NCBI GenBank assembly: GCA_903902705.1
Contig: CAIUVX010000205.1
Location: 1 to 64,000 of the forward strand
Origin: an uncultured Methylococcales bacterium
Lineage (GTDB): Bacteria; Pseudomonadota; Gammaproteobacteria; Methylococcales; Methylomonadaceae
DNA: 64,000 nucleotides
Reading direction: 5' to 3'
How positions within the stretch are numbered: position 1 is the first letter of the stretch; the number at the start of each line of letters is the position of its first letter. The position numbers were made by a program, and so were the translations under genes. The notes under the pieces are model-generated. The model was not told where the DNA came from, searched no databases, and worked only from the letters and a program-made list of their open reading frames with translations. Positions 14,864 through 25,743 of this stretch are shown in pieces.

Positions 14864-16120
14864 TTAACACCACCGTTCATGAGTAACGCTACGTCCACCC
14901 CCACATTGCGGCAATTGCTTTAAAACCTCTTGTGCGTCAACATTGCCTTGTTCAGCGGCTTTACGAATCCACGCGACTGCTTGAGCGTTGTCTTTGGCGA
15001 CCCCTGTGCCACTTATATACATAATCCCTAATCTAAATTGCGCTCTTGCATAACCTTGTTCAGCGGCTTTACGAAACCATGTGACTGCTTGCGCTTCATC
15101 TTTGGTGACACCTTCGCCAGTTGCATACGCAAACCCTAAATCAGATTGTGCATCTGCATCGCCTTGTTCAGCGGCTTTCCGATACCACGCGACTGCTTGC
15201 GCCTCATCTTTGGCGACACCTCCTGTACCATTGTAATACGCATACCCTAAATTAGATTGCGCTCTTGCATTTCCTTGTTCAGCGGCTTTGCGCCACCACG
15301 CTACAGCTTGCGCATCGTCTTTGGCAACACCTATGCCATTGTAATACGCAGCCCCTAATTTAAATTGCGCTTTTGCATCTCCTTGTTCAGCGGCTTTGCG
15401 AAACCATGCAACTGCTTGGGTTTCATCTTTGGCGATGCCTGTACCATTGTAATACGCAACCCCTAAATTAGATTGCGCTCCTGCATCTCCTTGTTCAGCG
15501 GCTTTGCGAAGCCACGCGACTGCTTGGGTTTCATCTTTGGTGATGCCTATGCCTTTTTCATACATAATCCCTAAATTAGATTGTGCATCTACATTTCCTT
15601 GTTCGGCGGCTTTGCGAAACCATGCAACTGCTTGGGTTTCATCTTTGGCGACCCCTCTGCCTTCTACATACATAGTCCCTAAATTAAATTGCGCTTGTGC
15701 ATAGCCTTGTTCAGCAGCTTTGCGAAACCATGCAACTGCTTGAGTTTCGTCTTTGGAGACACCTGTGCCATTGTCATACGCAGACCCTAAATTAGATTGC
15801 GCATTAGCATAGCCTTGTTCAGCGGCTTTACGAGTCCACGCGACTGCCTGAGCATCATCTTTGCCGATACCTTTGCCGAAATGATAGCAGCCACCCAATA
15901 ATGTCTGTGCGATGGGCTGTCCTTGTTGCGCCGCCTGTGTCCAAAAATCAATTTGTTTAGGGCAGTTTTCTGAAAAATAGGTTTCGCTTGAACCGTTGTG
16001 ACGCGCACGACTACTGTCCATTTCTTCTGCCATTGCTTTTAGGCGAGTTTGTGTATCATCGGCAATCGCTATACCATTGACGGCAAAAAGACATAATAAA
16101 GTCAAAAATCGTTTTTTCAT
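14864..16120 (-). CDS. Secreted Sel1-repeat protein
   Basis: A 418-residue protein with a signal peptide (MKKRFLTLLCLFAVNGIAIA, then DD). It is followed by about nine full Sel1-like repeats of 36 residues and a partial tenth, each ending in a near-identical AVAWxRKAAEQG. The seventh repeat has one extra glycine. The C-terminus is Cys-containing (QCGGG...RWC). Sel1 repeats form alpha/alpha solenoids for protein-protein contacts. The partner is unknown. The DNA repeats have a 108-bp period and are very alike, so copy number could change by recombination. Confidence 0.85.
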   Translation of the reverse strand: MKKRFLTLLCLFAVNGIAIADDTQTRLKAMAEEMDSSRARHNGSSETYFSENCPKQIDFWTQAAQQGQPIAQTLLGGCYHFGKGIGKDDAQAVAWTRKAAEQGYANAQSNLGSAYDNGTGVSKDETQAVAWFRKAAEQGYAQAQFNLGTMYVEGRGVAKDETQAVAWFRKAAEQGNVDAQSNLGIMYEKGIGITKDETQAVAWLRKAAEQGDAGAQSNLGVAYYNGTGIAKDETQAVAWFRKAAEQGDAKAQFKLGAAYYNGIGVAKDDAQAVAWWRKAAEQGNARAQSNLGYAYYNGTGGVAKDEAQAVAWYRKAAEQGDADAQSDLGFAYATGEGVTKDEAQAVTWFRKAAEQGYARAQFRLGIMYISGTGVAKDNAQAVAWIRKAAEQGNVDAQEVLKQLPQCGGGRSVTHERWC

Positions 16121-16234: not shown

Positions 16235-16268
16235 ATGACTGCCAGTCCTTTAAAGGACTGGCAGTCAT
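16235..16268. repeat. Palindromic element, copy 1 (34-bp perfect palindrome)
   Basis: A perfect palindrome centred on CCTTTAAAGG with arms ATGACTGCCAGT/ACTGGCAGTCAT. Copies occur at 17833-17868 (inside the RND gene) and 24232-24265. Copies 1 and 3 also share about 28 bases to their right, so the mobile unit may be longer than the palindrome. Confidence 0.9.
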
Positions 16269-16327
16269 GCTCAAAAGTAAAAATAACAGATTTAATACGC
16301 TACTCAAATTATTAATAACCCTACATC

Positions 16328-19300
16328 ATGCTTAGCACCCTAGTCCGTTTTTCCATTCGTTTTTACGGTATCGTTATCGCGTTGGCGATAGTTATTTTAC
16401 TGGTCGGGGCGTATCGCTTTACCACCGCTGGTCTGGATATTTTTCCTGAGTTTTCTCCCAAGCAGGTGATTATTCAAACTGAATCAATCGGTTTGTCGGC
16501 TGAACAGGTTGAAGTATTGGTTACGCATCCGATTGAAACGGCTGTAAGTGGTTTGGTGGGCTTAAAAGCGGTGCGCTCTGAATCGATACAAGGTTTGTCG
16601 ATTGTCATCGCCACCTTTGCAGAAAACAGTAATATTTATCTGAATCGGCAATTGATTAGTGAACGCTTGGCGAGTTTGACAGCGCAGTTACCGCAAGGTG
16701 TTACTCCGATTACCTTACCCTTGTCCTCGTCATCTGCAACGGTTTTAACCATCGGTTTAAGCTCAGAACAGCAAGATTTAATGGCGTTGCGCAGTTTGGT
16801 GGATTGGACACTGGTGCCGCGTTTATTGGCTGTGACGGGGGTTGCGGATGTTAATGTGTTTGGCGGCGAGATTAAGCAGTTACAAATTCAGCTTGATCCT
16901 GTACAGTTGCAACGCTTCAATGTATCGCTGGAGGAAGTGATTCAAACTGCCTCTCAAGCGGGGATGATTCAAGGCAGTGGTTTTATTGAAAACCAAAATC
17001 AACGCTTCACTCTGCAAGTGACAGGGCAACCGCAAACGCCAGAACAATTTGCAAAAATACCCTTGCTTAACCAAGCATCGGGTAATCAGCCAATTACCTT
17101 AGGTGAAGTTGCTCACATTGAATACGCGCCAGAACCGCCGATAGGCGCGGCGCAAATCATGGGCAAACAAGGCATAGTGATGATGGTGATTGGTCAATAT
17201 GGCGCGAATACGTTATCAGTATCGCGGCAGGTTGAACAAACGCTGAAAGAATTTGAACCGCTGTTTCAAAAGCAAGGCATTCAGTTTTATGCGCATTTGT
17301 TTCGCCCCGCTGATTATATCGAAACCTCATTGCGTAATTTATCAGGGCATTTGCTGTTGGGTGGCTTGTTCGTGGTCATTATTTTGTATGGCTTTTTGTT
17401 TAATATTCGCACCGCGTTTATTTCCGCATTGGCAATTCCTGTGTCCTTGACGGGCGCGATGTTGGTATTGTTACAAGCAGGGGTTAATCTGAATATTATG
17501 GTATTGGGCGGTTTGGCAATTGCCTTGGGAGAAGTGGTGGATGATGCCATTATTGATACTGAAAATATTTTTCGCCGTTTGCGCGAAAATCGTTTATTAC
17601 CTCAGCCACAACCCGCTAGTTATATTGTTTACACTGCGTCAATGGAAGTGCGTAGTTCGGTGGTGTATGCCAGTTTTATAGTCGCGTTGGCATTTGTGCC
17701 ATTGTTAACCTTAAGTGGCGTGGTCGGACGTTTATTTGCACCGTTGGGCTATGCGTATATTTTGGCAATTTTAGTGTCGTTACTGGTCGCACTGACGCTT
17801 ACCCCCGCGTTGTGTTATGTGTTGTTGGGTAACAGGACTGCCAGTCCTTTAAAGGACTGGCAGTCCTGCTCTGATGACCCTCCGTTGATTAAGCTGCTCA
17901 AACCGCGCTATAAGGCGTTTTTGGGTGTGATTGCTAAGCACTTTAACGCGGTGATTATTGCCAGTGTGTTGTTATGTATTGCGGGTATTGCGGCTTTTTT
18001 CCAGTTCGATAGCAAACTGTTACCCGAACTGCGCGAAGGGCATTATATTGTCCACACCACCAGCATTCCAGGGACTTCGTTGCAAGAATCCTTGCGTATC
18101 GGTAGTCAACTCACTGAGCAGTTTATGAAAATTGACGGCGTGCAATCGGTGTCGCAATGGGCAGGACGGGCAGAACGCGGTGCAGATACTTATGGCAGTC
18201 ATTACAGTGAATATGAAATTCGTTTGAATCCGTCATCAGGTGCAGAACAACAACGTATTCTTGAGCAATTGCGCGACATTCTGGGCAATTTTTTGGGTAT
18301 TTTATACGAAGCTAATACTTTTTTAACTGAACGAATTGATGAAACTATCTCAGGTTATACAGCACCTGTGGTGGTGAATATTTATGGTAATGACTTGAAT
18401 GTGCTGGACAGCAAAGCGCAAGCGGTTTCGGCTATTTTGCATGATATGCAGGGAGCTACTGATATACAACTACGTTCACCGCCTGCAACACCGCTGTTAC
18501 AAGTTCAGTTAAATCTCGACCAGCTTACCGCAACAGGCGTTAGCACGATGCAAGTCATGGATAGTTTGCAAACTGCTTATGAAACCCGCGTGGTCGGTAA
18601 AAACCTACAAGGCAATAAAATTTATAATGTGGCAGTAGCGTTGTCGCCAGAGTTAAGACAGCAACCCGAATCTATTGCGCAACTGCCACTTAGGGCGCGG
18701 GATGGTAGTCTGATAAGATTGGAGCAAGTCGCCGACATTACTCATACCGCCAGCCGTTATAATATTCTGCATCAAAATTCCCAGCGGAGGCAAACCGTGA
18801 CTTGCAATGTGCTAAATCGCGATTTGGATGAATTTATGGCAGAATTAAAAAAACGGGTATTAACAGATATTGCCTTTACCGCTGACAGTTATCCTGAATT
18901 TACAGGCGCGGCAGTTGAGCAAGCCGAAGCGCGGCGTAATTTAATCGGTTATTCTTTGTTAGCAGGCGCGGGTGTGTTAATGTTAATTTATATCGCTATC
19001 GGCAGTTTACGCAATGCGTTACTGACATTGGTTAATTTACCGTTCGCGCTCATTGGTGGCGTGGCGGCGGTGTTGTTAACAGACGCAACTTTATCGGTAG
19101 GTTCAGTGGTGGGTTTTGTCACTTTGTTTGGAATTACGGTGCGTAATAGCATTATGCTGTTGTCCCATTATCAGCATTTAGTCGAAGAGCAAGGTAAAGC
19201 GTGGAATTTGGATACTGTACTGCTAGGTGCGGGTGAGCGTTTACCGTCTATACTAATGACCGCTCTGGTAACTGCTTTAGCGATGTTTCCGATTGCTTTT

Positions 19301-19432
19301 AATAGTGATAATGCAGGTCGCGAGATTATGGGACCAATGGCGGCGATTATTATTGGTGGTTTAGCGTCTTCAACACTATTGAATTTATCATTGCTGCCTA
19401 TTATGCTACTGCGTTATGGACGTTTTAAATGA
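16328..19432 (+). CDS. RND-family efflux transporter, inner-membrane permease subunit
   Basis: A 1034-residue RND permease with the usual two halves of one plus five membrane helices and large periplasmic loops. The TM4 motif GEVVDDAIIDTENIFRRLREN near residues 399-415 has the acidic residues of proton relay and resembles the CzcA/HME group. RND pumps need a membrane-fusion protein and an outer-membrane channel; none is adjacent, so this is an orphan subunit. Substrate unknown. A palindromic repeat is inserted in frame at residues 502-514, in the cytosolic loop between the two halves, and the frame continues through it. No clear ribosome site precedes the ATG. Confidence 0.93.
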   Translation: MLSTLVRFSIRFYGIVIALAIVILLVGAYRFTTAGLDIFPEFSPKQVIIQTESIGLSAEQVEVLVTHPIETAVSGLVGLKAVRSESIQGLSIVIATFAENSNIYLNRQLISERLASLTAQLPQGVTPITLPLSSSSATVLTIGLSSEQQDLMALRSLVDWTLVPRLLAVTGVADVNVFGGEIKQLQIQLDPVQLQRFNVSLEEVIQTASQAGMIQGSGFIENQNQRFTLQVTGQPQTPEQFAKIPLLNQASGNQPITLGEVAHIEYAPEPPIGAAQIMGKQGIVMMVIGQYGANTLSVSRQVEQTLKEFEPLFQKQGIQFYAHLFRPADYIETSLRNLSGHLLLGGLFVVIILYGFLFNIRTAFISALAIPVSLTGAMLVLLQAGVNLNIMVLGGLAIALGEVVDDAIIDTENIFRRLRENRLLPQPQPASYIVYTASMEVRSSVVYASFIVALAFVPLLTLSGVVGRLFAPLGYAYILAILVSLLVALTLTPALCYVLLGNRTASPLKDWQSCSDDPPLIKLLKPRYKAFLGVIAKHFNAVIIASVLLCIAGIAAFFQFDSKLLPELREGHYIVHTTSIPGTSLQESLRIGSQLTEQFMKIDGVQSVSQWAGRAERGADTYGSHYSEYEIRLNPSSGAEQQRILEQLRDILGNFLGILYEANTFLTERIDETISGYTAPVVVNIYGNDLNVLDSKAQAVSAILHDMQGATDIQLRSPPATPLLQVQLNLDQLTATGVSTMQVMDSLQTAYETRVVGKNLQGNKIYNVAVALSPELRQQPESIAQLPLRARDGSLIRLEQVADITHTASRYNILHQNSQRRQTVTCNVLNRDLDEFMAELKKRVLTDIAFTADSYPEFTGAAVEQAEARRNLIGYSLLAGAGVLMLIYIAIGSLRNALLTLVNLPFALIGGVAAVLLTDATLSVGSVVGFVTLFGITVRNSIMLLSHYQHLVEEQGKAWNLDTVLLGAGERLPSILMTALVTALAMFPIAFNSDNAGREIMGPMAAIIIGGLASSTLLNLSLLPIMLLRYGRFK
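17833..17868. repeat. Palindromic element, copy 2, in frame within the RND gene
   Basis: A 36-bp perfect palindrome (CAGGACTGCCAGTCCTTT and its complement), core-identical to copy 1. In the RND reading frame it encodes RTASPLKDWQSC and introduces no stop. Confidence 0.95.
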
Positions 19433-24148: not shown

Positions 24149-24231
24149 TGTTTCTTAGACTATATTTAAACCTAATCTACCTACAACTAAAGAGTTTTTG
24201 GTAATGTGTTAAATCTGTTACAGCGATATTA

Positions 24232-24265
24232 ATGACTACCAGTCTTTTAAAAGACTGGCAGTCAT
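24232..24265. repeat. Palindromic element, copy 3
   Basis: A 34-bp palindrome with one mismatch, related to copies 1 and 2 but with a TTTTAAAA centre. The right flank (AGTAAAAACAACAGA...) is shared with copy 1. It lies in the 400-bp gap between amtB and ompA, upstream of the ompA promoter. Confidence 0.85.
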
Positions 24266-24440
24266 GCACAACAGTAAAAACAACAGACTTAATCCCCTAC
24301 CCTATTTTGACTCCAGTAATCATCTCTTTAGCCTTCTCCGTGGCGATTATTTATTCTCATTTTGTAATACCAAGTACACGACAACGCCAGTTTTTTTGTT
24401 GTTTTATTTTAACATTTTGTAGTGAATTTGTCTTTTTACA

Positions 24441-24482: not shown

Positions 24483-24538
24483 AATTCTTTAATTCTTTAA
24501 TTCTTTAATTCTTTAATTCTTTAATTCTTTAATTCTTT
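24483..24538 (+). repeat. Seven perfect tandem copies of AATTCTTT in the ompA 5' UTR
   Basis: Seven uninterrupted copies of the 8-bp unit fill 56 bases and end directly at the AGGAG ribosome site of the OmpA-family gene. A tract of this kind can change length by replication slippage, altering leader length or structure. Confidence 0.97.
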
Positions 24539-24549
24539 AGGAGAATCTT

Positions 24550-25743
24550 ATGCTAAAAAAACATTTACTTGCGCTTGCTGTATTAGCAAGTATAGGCAGT
24601 ATCTCTCTGGCTCAAGCTGACGAACCTTTAGATACTAGCGTGTCTCAGGCTAGCGCACCTGTCGATACCCGATGGTATGTTGCCCCTTTTGGTACGTTTA
24701 TAACGACAGGTAGTGGCAAAGCGGGTAATGGCTGGGGTGGTGGACTTGCTGTTGGTAAAATGCTTGATAAGCATTTTAATGTTGAGGTAAAAGGTTTTTA
24801 TGACACCGCAAGATACACTGGACGAGCTTACGACAATACCAATGGGCTAGACATTTTTGGAAGTCGCACGCGTGGTGATTGGAATTTAGCGGGTGCTACC
24901 ATCGATTTACAATACTACTTTATGCGTGGAAAGTTTTCACCTTATTCCGTTATTGCTTTGGGTGGCATGGATACTGACATTACATCTACACACACAAGAA
25001 TAAATGGTGTCGTGGATAAGCGTAGCCGCAGTGCGTCAACTTTAATTGCTGAAGCTGGCTTAGGTTTTACCTATGAAGTACTTGACAATCTATTAGTGCG
25101 TAGTGATGTTCGTTATCGCTTTGGTGATACCTTTACTAGCAACGATCGCGTCAATAACCTCGCTGGTTACAATAATAACATTGATACCAGTAGAGTAACC
25201 AACGACATGACGGTTAATCTTGGTGTTGTTGTTCCTTTTGGTCCTAAACCAACAGCACCAGAACCCGTTGCTCCCGCACCAGAACCTGTTGCTGTTGTCG
25301 ATTGCTCAACGCTGGATTCTGATAATGACGGCATTAATGATTGTATCGATAAATGCGCTGGCACTTTAGCAGGTAGCAAAGTTGATGCGACAGGTTGCCC
25401 AATCAGCTTGGAATTAAAAGGCGTAAACTTCAAATATGATTCAGCACAACTGACTGAAAATGCGCAATACATTCTCGATGGTGTTGCACAAAATCTGATC
25501 AACTACCCATTGAAAAACGAACTTGAAGTTGATGGCCATACCAGCAGCGAAGGTAGCAACGCTTACAACCTGAAATTATCACAAAAACGTTCATTGTCTG
25601 TTGCTAATTATTTAGCCTCAAAAGGTGTAACCAACAGATTACACGCTAAAGGCTATGGCGAAAGCAAACCAGTTGCTGATAACCGCACTGAACAAGGCAG
25701 AGAACAAAACCGTCGCGTTGAATTAATCTGGATTGGAAACTAA
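24550..25743 (+). CDS. OmpA-family outer membrane protein
   Basis: A 397-residue protein. The signal peptide ends SLAQA; residues about 35-225 form an eight-stranded OmpA-like beta-barrel. A Pro/Ala hinge (PTAPEPVAPAPEPVA) follows, then a calcium-binding-like DSDNDGINDCIDKC segment, then the peptidoglycan-binding OmpA C domain (FKYDSAQL, GHTSSEGSNAYNLKLSQKR, NRRVEL). It tethers outer membrane to cell wall. Expression is probably affected by the repeat tract just before the ribosome site. It ends in a strong terminator. Confidence 0.93.
   Translation: MLKKHLLALAVLASIGSISLAQADEPLDTSVSQASAPVDTRWYVAPFGTFITTGSGKAGNGWGGGLAVGKMLDKHFNVEVKGFYDTARYTGRAYDNTNGLDIFGSRTRGDWNLAGATIDLQYYFMRGKFSPYSVIALGGMDTDITSTHTRINGVVDKRSRSASTLIAEAGLGFTYEVLDNLLVRSDVRYRFGDTFTSNDRVNNLAGYNNNIDTSRVTNDMTVNLGVVVPFGPKPTAPEPVAPAPEPVAVVDCSTLDSDNDGINDCIDKCAGTLAGSKVDATGCPISLELKGVNFKYDSAQLTENAQYILDGVAQNLINYPLKNELEVDGHTSSEGSNAYNLKLSQKRSLSVANYLASKGVTNRLHAKGYGESKPVADNRTEQGREQNRRVELIWIGN

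Follow-up and report, generated by a model that had tools for sequence, protein, structure and literature searches.

A palindrome read in frame in an RND transporter gene is one copy of a dispersed hairpin repeat of Crenothrix-like methanotrophs

The window analysed here is a stretch of 64,000 nucleotides from an uncultured Methylococcales bacterium of the family Methylomonadaceae (assembly GCA_903902705.1, contig CAIUVX010000205.1, positions 1 to 64,000 of the forward strand). It contains an intact gene for an RND transporter whose reading frame runs through a perfect palindrome of 36 bp, and this palindrome is one copy of a multi-copy, dispersed, non-autonomous hairpin repeat that is found in Crenothrix-like methanotrophs. 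We consider it very probable that the copies which hit genes are filtered by selection, both for the preservation of the reading frame and for permissive protein loops. The features concerned are the following (MITE stands for miniature inverted-repeat transposable element).

17833 to 17868, no strand: perfect 36-bp palindrome in the RND gene, CAGGACTGCCAGTCCTTT/AAAGGACTGGCAGTCCTG, encoding R503 to C514
17834 to 17867: bare 34-bp repeat unit (A N core N' T) within this palindrome, with its core at 17836 to 17865
16328 to 19432, plus strand: intact RND transporter gene, 1034 amino acids, AcrB/AcrD/AcrF family (PF00873, E 5e-211)
16235 to 16268, no strand: intergenic copy of the palindrome, 34 bp, perfect, with a core identical to that of the copy at 17833-17868
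24200 to 24301, no strand: 102-bp MITE-like element with ends GGTAATGTGTTAAA...CTTAATCCCCTACC and a diverged palindrome at its centre, at 24232-24265

The palindrome in the RND gene consists of two 18-nt arms that are fully complementary, with a loop of 0 nt, and its codons (AGG ACT GCC AGT CCT TTA AAG GAC TGG CAG TCC TGC) are read as RTASPLKDWQSC, residues 503 to 514 of the protein. The RND frame (16328-19432) is open on both sides, as had been claimed in a first-pass annotation made from the sequence of the window; the same annotation also saw correctly that the core is identical to that of the copy at 16235 and related to that of the copy at 24232 (0 and 3 core mismatches, respectively). 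The right arm of a MITE follows the copy at 16235-16268, up to about position 16304, and the left arm is not recognisable; this copy is also present, with one substitution, in G006 (genomes are referred to by our own numbers, G000 being the window's own genome: 3.97 Mb, 210 contigs, 99.79% complete). The limits of the element at 24200-24301 were set by eye against the MITE consensus. One hundred shuffles of the window gave 0 matches to the palindrome each, compared with the 3 that were found. The best solved relatives of the RND protein are ZneA and CusA, of the heavy-metal efflux type, and the protein is CzcA-like.

Matches to the RND gene were obtained in all of the 61 genomes searched, and 30 of the returned loci were aligned. 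The insert follows the sequence 'LTPALCYVLLG', a position that we take to be the loop after transmembrane helix 6 (the helix was placed from knowledge of RND proteins). Palindrome-derived residues are present in this loop in four of the 30 sequences (G000, G007, G003 and G032); the 26 others, including those of G006 (97% identical overall), G002 and G001, do not have them. The residues are thus an insertion, as the first-pass annotation proposed, and they do derive from the palindrome. They are not, however, a clean addition, in that part of a short variable loop has been replaced: from LLG to DPP the loop has 15 residues in G000 but 9 in G006 and, to give one further example, 7 in G022, which amounts to a net gain of 6-8 amino acids rather than 12. 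The insert of G003 is decayed (RTASPLEDGQSY). The palindrome of G032 uses the other open phase (QDCQSFKGLAVL), and for this reason the same loop was probably hit independently in that genome. On the other hand, the junctions are similar in G000, G007 and G003, so that their insert is probably a single old insertion which has been lost or replaced in sister species. The RND homologues of G030 (C1:1986737-1989913) and G070 (C1:752160-755372) match as two pieces within one open frame, which suggests longer in-frame insertions near RND residues 422-430.

We call F1 the 34-bp unit A-N-GACTGCCAGTCCTTTAAAGGACTGGCAGTC-N'-T. Allowing up to three mismatches, its 30-nt core is found at 75 places in the window's own genome, and copies of the palindrome lie, among other locations, in frame within many further genes, so that the presence of the palindrome elsewhere in the genome, which the first-pass annotation implied, is established. 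With the same threshold the core is carried by 13 of 237 genomes of the family: the eight genomes of the own genus (8/8, 1 to 79 copies each), two of the three genomes of the genus g26 (44 copies in G032 and 3 in G056) and three genomes from two other genera (1-2 copies each). Among 101 relatives that include other families of the order, searched with up to two mismatches, 10 have the core, 0 of these 10 being outside the family. A scan of 84,980 species for the exact core returned 74 stretches, all from Methylococcales or Methylococcaceae metagenome-assembled genomes (MAGs), from Crenothrix sp. D3 or from an 'uncultured Methylomonas sp.' MAG. There were 0 exact matches to F1 in viral contigs, and 0 in plasmids, either to F1 or to one variant of a second palindrome, F2, described below. 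The exact half-site, the 13-mer GGACTGGCAGTCC, occurs at 2 places in the own genome; each of them is an inverted pair, and the idea that the half-site is an uptake-type word was rejected on that ground.

Most of the genomes concerned are metagenome-assembled, and one could ask whether the palindrome has arisen by chance or by misassembly. But a reversed control pattern gave 0 matches in the own genome and in every other genome searched, and some sites are shared by separately assembled genomes (for example those in fmt, smc and an AMP-binding gene of G007, which is Crenothrix sp. D3, and of G005), which leaves this explanation with a practically negligible probability.

The genes that host the repeat are diverse, and several have housekeeping roles. 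A Pfam scan of 28 repeat-bearing open reading frames (ORFs), among which the RND gene of the window and the MITE-borne copy L076, gave a family at 1e-5 for 24 of them and none for L069, L114, L121 and L016. The hosts include SMC, methionyl-tRNA formyltransferase (fmt), an AMP-binding ligase, RecC (with two inserts), BirA, DabA (two inserts), a Mur ligase whose nearest solved chains are of the MurC/Mpl type, a bifunctional penicillin-binding protein, a YfiH/PgeF-type protein, a PALP enzyme, an epimerase, an ATP-grasp protein, an ABC transporter, a DNA methylase and secreted adhesins. The 34-mer has two phases that are free of stops and a TAA in the third. When orthologues and paralogues are collapsed by an explicit list, 24 sites read (x)TASPLKDWQS and 6 read DCQSFKGLAV (phase 0), a departure from equal use with p 0.0014; for the 25 sites that are supported by Pfam or by homologues the numbers are 20 and 5 (p 0.004). 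The peptide of the favoured phase, (M/R/T)TASPLKDWQS, is hydrophilic. The phase-0 sites include smc, recC and the RND gene of G032, and also L064 and L099, which are at N termini, immediately ahead of a hydrophobic segment.

The predominance of one phase could mean that TASPLKDWQS is a functional protein motif which has spread through selection at the protein level. However, the copies are identical at the level of the DNA, at synonymous positions too, many of them lie outside genes, the host proteins belong to unrelated families, and the six sites in the other phase encode an unrelated peptide. The sites in smc, recC and the RND gene of G032 largely refute this explanation, which we find hardly credible.

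Comparison of the host genes with their relatives shows where the inserts lie. The fmt gene is filled in two of 30 aligned sequences (G007 and G005, 945 nt) and empty in the 28 others, 26 of which have 921 nt and 2 have 924 nt. The Mur ligase gene is filled in one of 30, with a net gain of 30 nt, and the AMP-binding gene in four of 17 (the unit being intact in two and decayed in two); the latter gene gains a net 2-4 amino acids compared with its relatives. The insert falls in an alignment gap with respect to solved Fmt (1fmt), BirA (1bia) and a YfiH-type chain (1xaf). The segment that holds the insert is variable in the alignments that we made. As for smc, G000, G002, G003, G005 and G007 have the unit, G006 has a truncated one and G001 has none. 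The adhesin paralogues of G000 and G006, all in frame, contain either the full unit, its left part only (L292) or its right half only (L297). The inserts are therefore polymorphic among sister species, and they are eroded by point mutations and by deletions that keep the frame. Taken together, the open frames, the positions in loops and the bias in phase suggest that the palindrome may be tolerated at the protein level.

The repeat has two carriers. We gathered 153 distinct copies (up to four mismatches and at least 40 nt of flank), a set that leans to well-conserved copies and, in the named genomes, to exact ones, and which favours MITE copies, since 30 loci were retrieved by the end word of the MITE. 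Sixty-five of the 153 were scored as having the arms of a longer element, whose consensus measures 102 bp, with terminal inverted repeats (ends GGTAGTGGGTTAAA) and the palindrome at its centre. Exact 8-bp flanking repeats are found around three of the ten palindrome-bearing elements that have both ends (L008, L129 and L131). The element L129 has an empty counterpart at the locus L073 of G006, possibly a paralogous copy of a repeated sequence. By its terminal inverted repeats, and by the target-site duplication that some copies show, this intergenic 102-bp carrier is a MITE. Sister elements of 129-136 bp in G000 (L267 and L287) have GGTAGTGGGTTAAA-type ends and a different central hairpin; L267 (136 bp, without the palindrome) is flanked by an exact 8-bp repeat and L287 by none. 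L092, in G006, was considered as a clean empty-site case and set aside, as it looks like a small MITE variant.

The 88 other copies are bare: conservation ends beyond the 34-bp unit A-N-core-N'-T, in which N pairs with N' in 80 of the 88 (T-A 45, C-G 19, G-C 16). With extensions of 0-6 nt, no target duplication at the bare units was clearly above that of shuffled pairs, and direct repeats of at least 3 nt at the ends of the 34 bp occur in 2 of the 88, compared with a mean of 2.2 in shuffled pairs. The combination of terminal inverted repeats and target-site duplication that marks a MITE is thus lacking in the bare in-gene unit. Forty-five of the 88 bare copies lie, in frame, in ORFs of at least 120 amino acids, versus 1 of the 65 MITE copies, and this sole ORF-overlapping MITE copy (L076) is in a transposase-like reading frame. 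Leaving out the loci that came from gene-directed searches, the placement in ORFs is 37/80 for bare and 1/64 for MITE copies (Fisher p 9e-11). In G000, 8 of the 56 distinct copies examined, of the 75 in the genome, are bare and in ORFs.

The existence of a MITE with the same palindrome at its centre, and with 8-bp target duplications in some copies, makes it conceivable that the in-gene palindromes are remnants of 102-bp elements which entered genes and whose arms were then deleted; several in-gene copies of G000 and G006 indeed share with the MITE the T-A outer pair and the flanking TAAT/ATGC. However, the in-gene copies end sharply at 34 bp, with near-background bases past position 2 and no flanking duplication above chance. 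Moreover, in G032, 0 of the 24 distinct copies examined were scored as having MITE arms, although 15 of the 24 are in ORFs, and this route would need a first stage at which 110 bp (the MITE plus its target duplication) interrupted genes that are normally essential, smc and fmt among them. We regard this origin as improbable.

We favour a scheme in which new copies would be produced by some copying process and selection would purge those that break the frame or damage the protein, the survivors being in frame and in permissive loops; translation would turn the inserts into near-neutral extensions of loops. Ordinary transposition is unlikely to move the bare unit, given the lack of target duplication and a net gain other than 34 or 36 nt. 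With net gains of 24, 30 and about 9 nt, replacement is a better fit than simple insertion, and it could be, although this is a guess in which we have low confidence, that a short patch is replaced using a hairpin strand as template. Later evolution of the loop can explain these gains too.

A number of observations weigh against this scheme. A clean insertion of 34 bp is a frameshift, so that some loss or gain of target bases is needed too, and comparison of flanks between sister species gave no clean empty site of a bare unit, only loops of differing length. The insert of the Mur ligase is not in a gap with respect to 3hn7, whose own loop is longer. Seven of the ten two-ended MITEs are without an exact 8-bp repeat. 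The G-C class of outer pair makes up 11 of 15 in-gene copies of G032 and 1 of 9 of its non-ORF copies (p 0.009). Last, the palindrome diverges slowly: of 21 orthologous pairs, which are not independent, 20 show fewer changes in it than their flanks would lead one to expect, with p<0.05 for 8 of these (a 22nd pair, TPS, was excluded since its flanks could not be aligned). Between G000 and G007, the palindrome of the RND gene shows 0 differences in 34 positions versus 6.7 expected (p 0.0008), and that of smc, between G003 and G000, 1 difference versus 10.2 expected; the smc pair G003-G002 is the exception, with 6 differences versus 3.3 expected. A neutral insert would not predict such slowness. 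Re-copying from other members of the repeat is one possibility.

Slow divergence is also what one might expect if the palindrome were a nucleic-acid signal (a terminator, an attenuator, or a site for RNase or protein binding) with a regulatory role within genes. The hairpin is predicted to be very stable (-35.1 kcal/mol, z -8.3), the outer pair follows Watson-Crick rules in most bare copies, as stated above, and the MITE-borne copies contain 6 compensated double changes, more than in any of 2000 shuffles (maximum 4). On the contrary, the ORF copies have 31 one-sided core changes and 0 compensated ones, and the maintenance of a hairpin is thus unsupported for the in-gene copies; for all bare copies together there are 2 compensated double changes, a number that was reached by 233 of 2000 shuffles. 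In addition, the in-gene site has no T-tract and is not among the terminator-like sites, it has no match in Rfam, orthologues are frequently without the palindrome, and a signal of this kind has no need of a bias in reading phase. This explanation appears to us unlikely, and a little more so than an origin from MITE remnants. A co-variation of the outer pair in situ was considered and not retained, since the smc orthologues behind it are few and subfamily history may account for it.

F1 is not the only palindrome that lies within coding frames. G032 contains a second one, F2 (AGACCTTCCAGGTTTTAAAAACCTGGAAGGTCT, 33 bp; loci L075, L089, L098, L084 and L303), unrelated to F1, which is in frame as DLPGFKNLEGL in smc, in DabA (two inserts) and in further ORFs; an F2 variant is read in another phase in recC of the same genome. 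We surveyed hairpins with arms of at least 10 nt in 0.4 Mb of each of two genomes, G032 and G000, with crude ORF calls; the 400 kb of G032 are 280 kb of C31 and 120 kb of C32, large contigs in which copies were known beforehand. In this sample of G032, 5 of 16 F1 and 3 of 17 F2 hairpins lie in coding sequence (CDS), that is 8 of 33 for a coding fraction of 0.87. Such a strong depletion from genes is expected if most gene hits are removed. The corresponding number for F1 and F2 in 400 kb of G000 is 0 of 10, so that in-gene copies are rarer there than in G032. A GTAGAGACG-tagged family of hairpins in G032 (C31 and C32), which resembles the GTAG repetitive extragenic palindromes (REPs), has 11 copies in the 400 kb, 0 of 11 in CDS.

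Some loops host different palindromes. One loop of PgeF contains F1 in G032, an F2-type palindrome in its congener G056 and a C-run hairpin in G029; a second PgeF loop contains an F2-like unit in G032 and inserts that form hairpins, in folds made with no shuffle control, in G011, G022 and G037. That loops of PgeF, SMC and RND proteins are re-used by different palindromes or phases argues that the site of survival is set by the permissiveness of the loop rather than by the sequence of the repeat. A second coding palindrome and the occurrence of different palindromes in the same loops suggest a wider phenomenon. It may be that Methylomonadaceae have a general system with several families (F1, F2 and C-run hairpins) whose members would enter the same permissive loops (PgeF, RND, SMC hinge, DabA) repeatedly and independently, through short-patch copying, other than transposition, in which a few target bases are replaced; this broader proposal is tentative, and we would give it somewhat less than an even chance. 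If it is true, free-living bacteria have in such palindromes of several families a natural and recurring supply of new protein loops.

Other inserts were seen in passing. The PgeF/YfiH-like genes L336, L337, L341, L342, L344 and L347 have two loops with inserts that differ across several genera, and the C-run hairpin insert of PgeF reads NPPFTKG or NPPLCKRG. A third type of palindrome, GGAATCCAAACTCATGAGTTTGGATTCC, is in frame in an ORF of 518 codons in G000 (C196:1742), and similar ones are intergenic in G000 and G032. The smc gene of G022 (C94:20358-23990) matches as two pieces within one open frame, which suggests a longer in-frame insertion in the SMC hinge.

The comparisons with known systems that follow take these as excerpts of the cited papers describe them. 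The Rickettsia palindromic elements (RPEs), RPE-1 to RPE-10, and the palindromic elements of Wolbachia lie between genes and also in frame within unrelated protein genes (PMC2229807, PMC3767692, PMC10969869). F1 does the same, and further likenesses are the existence of several families, the exposed positions and the inserts common to orthologues. RPEs are rickettsial and measure about 100-150 bp, whereas the in-gene unit of F1 is 34 bp long (36 in the gene of the window) and is found in free-living methanotrophs; it is by these descriptions that F1 is set apart from RPEs. In an assay of gmk, the translated insert of an RPE was reportedly tolerated in the folded protein. The parallel with Rickettsia drawn in the first-pass annotation thus holds for the mode of action, and not for membership, the host being a Methylococcales gammaproteobacterium and the unit 34-36 bp long.

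It is true, as was noted there, that in-frame palindromes are known from Rickettsia, but they are not confined to it: the excerpts of PMC3733652 describe, in several species, intragenic REPs of the GTAG/CGTC type, which are palindromes of 20-40 bp, mostly intergenic, some of which lie in known genes including recBCD; in one instance related species share roughly the same site. The count of words starting with 'Methylo' in the text of that paper is 0. Unlike these REPs, F1 is a nearly perfect palindrome that ends in A-N...N'-T, with no GTAG/CGTC tag and no outer tetranucleotide shared by the 88 bare copies. F1 thus works like an RPE, yet it has neither the size of an RPE nor the tag of a REP.

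Bacterial MITEs with ORFs fused in frame have been described in the case of ERIC, the 107-bp form of NEMIS and YPAL (PMC2229807, in part), and occasional in-frame insertions in the case of Coxiella MITEs (PMC5896051, in part). The intergenic carrier of F1 is like the first three, as far as these excerpts describe them, in its terminal inverted repeats and its 8-bp target duplications in some copies, while the in-gene form differs from them by having no MITE arms or duplications and a third of the size. In mitochondria of Nematomorpha, perfect inverted repeats are present in translated genes, and template switching has been proposed for their maintenance (PMC6649704, in part); these palindromes are longer, mitochondrial and at gene-specific places, whereas F1 is one repeat across unrelated genes. 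In the openly licensed literature, we found no description of F1 in Crenothrix or its relatives.

In-frame palindromes have so far been viewed chiefly as a rickettsial peculiarity, with REP examples elsewhere. F1 is small enough to be defined exactly, its sites are available in filled, empty and eroded versions that are closely related, and the MITE-borne form occurs in the same genomes, which makes the route of entry, the phase preference and the seeding of new protein loops testable.

Two tandem repeats were also seen in the window: a 108-bp repeat at 15501-15877, inside a minus-strand ORF (14864-16120), and an 8-bp array, AATTCTTT, at 24483-24539, upstream of the ORF at 24550.

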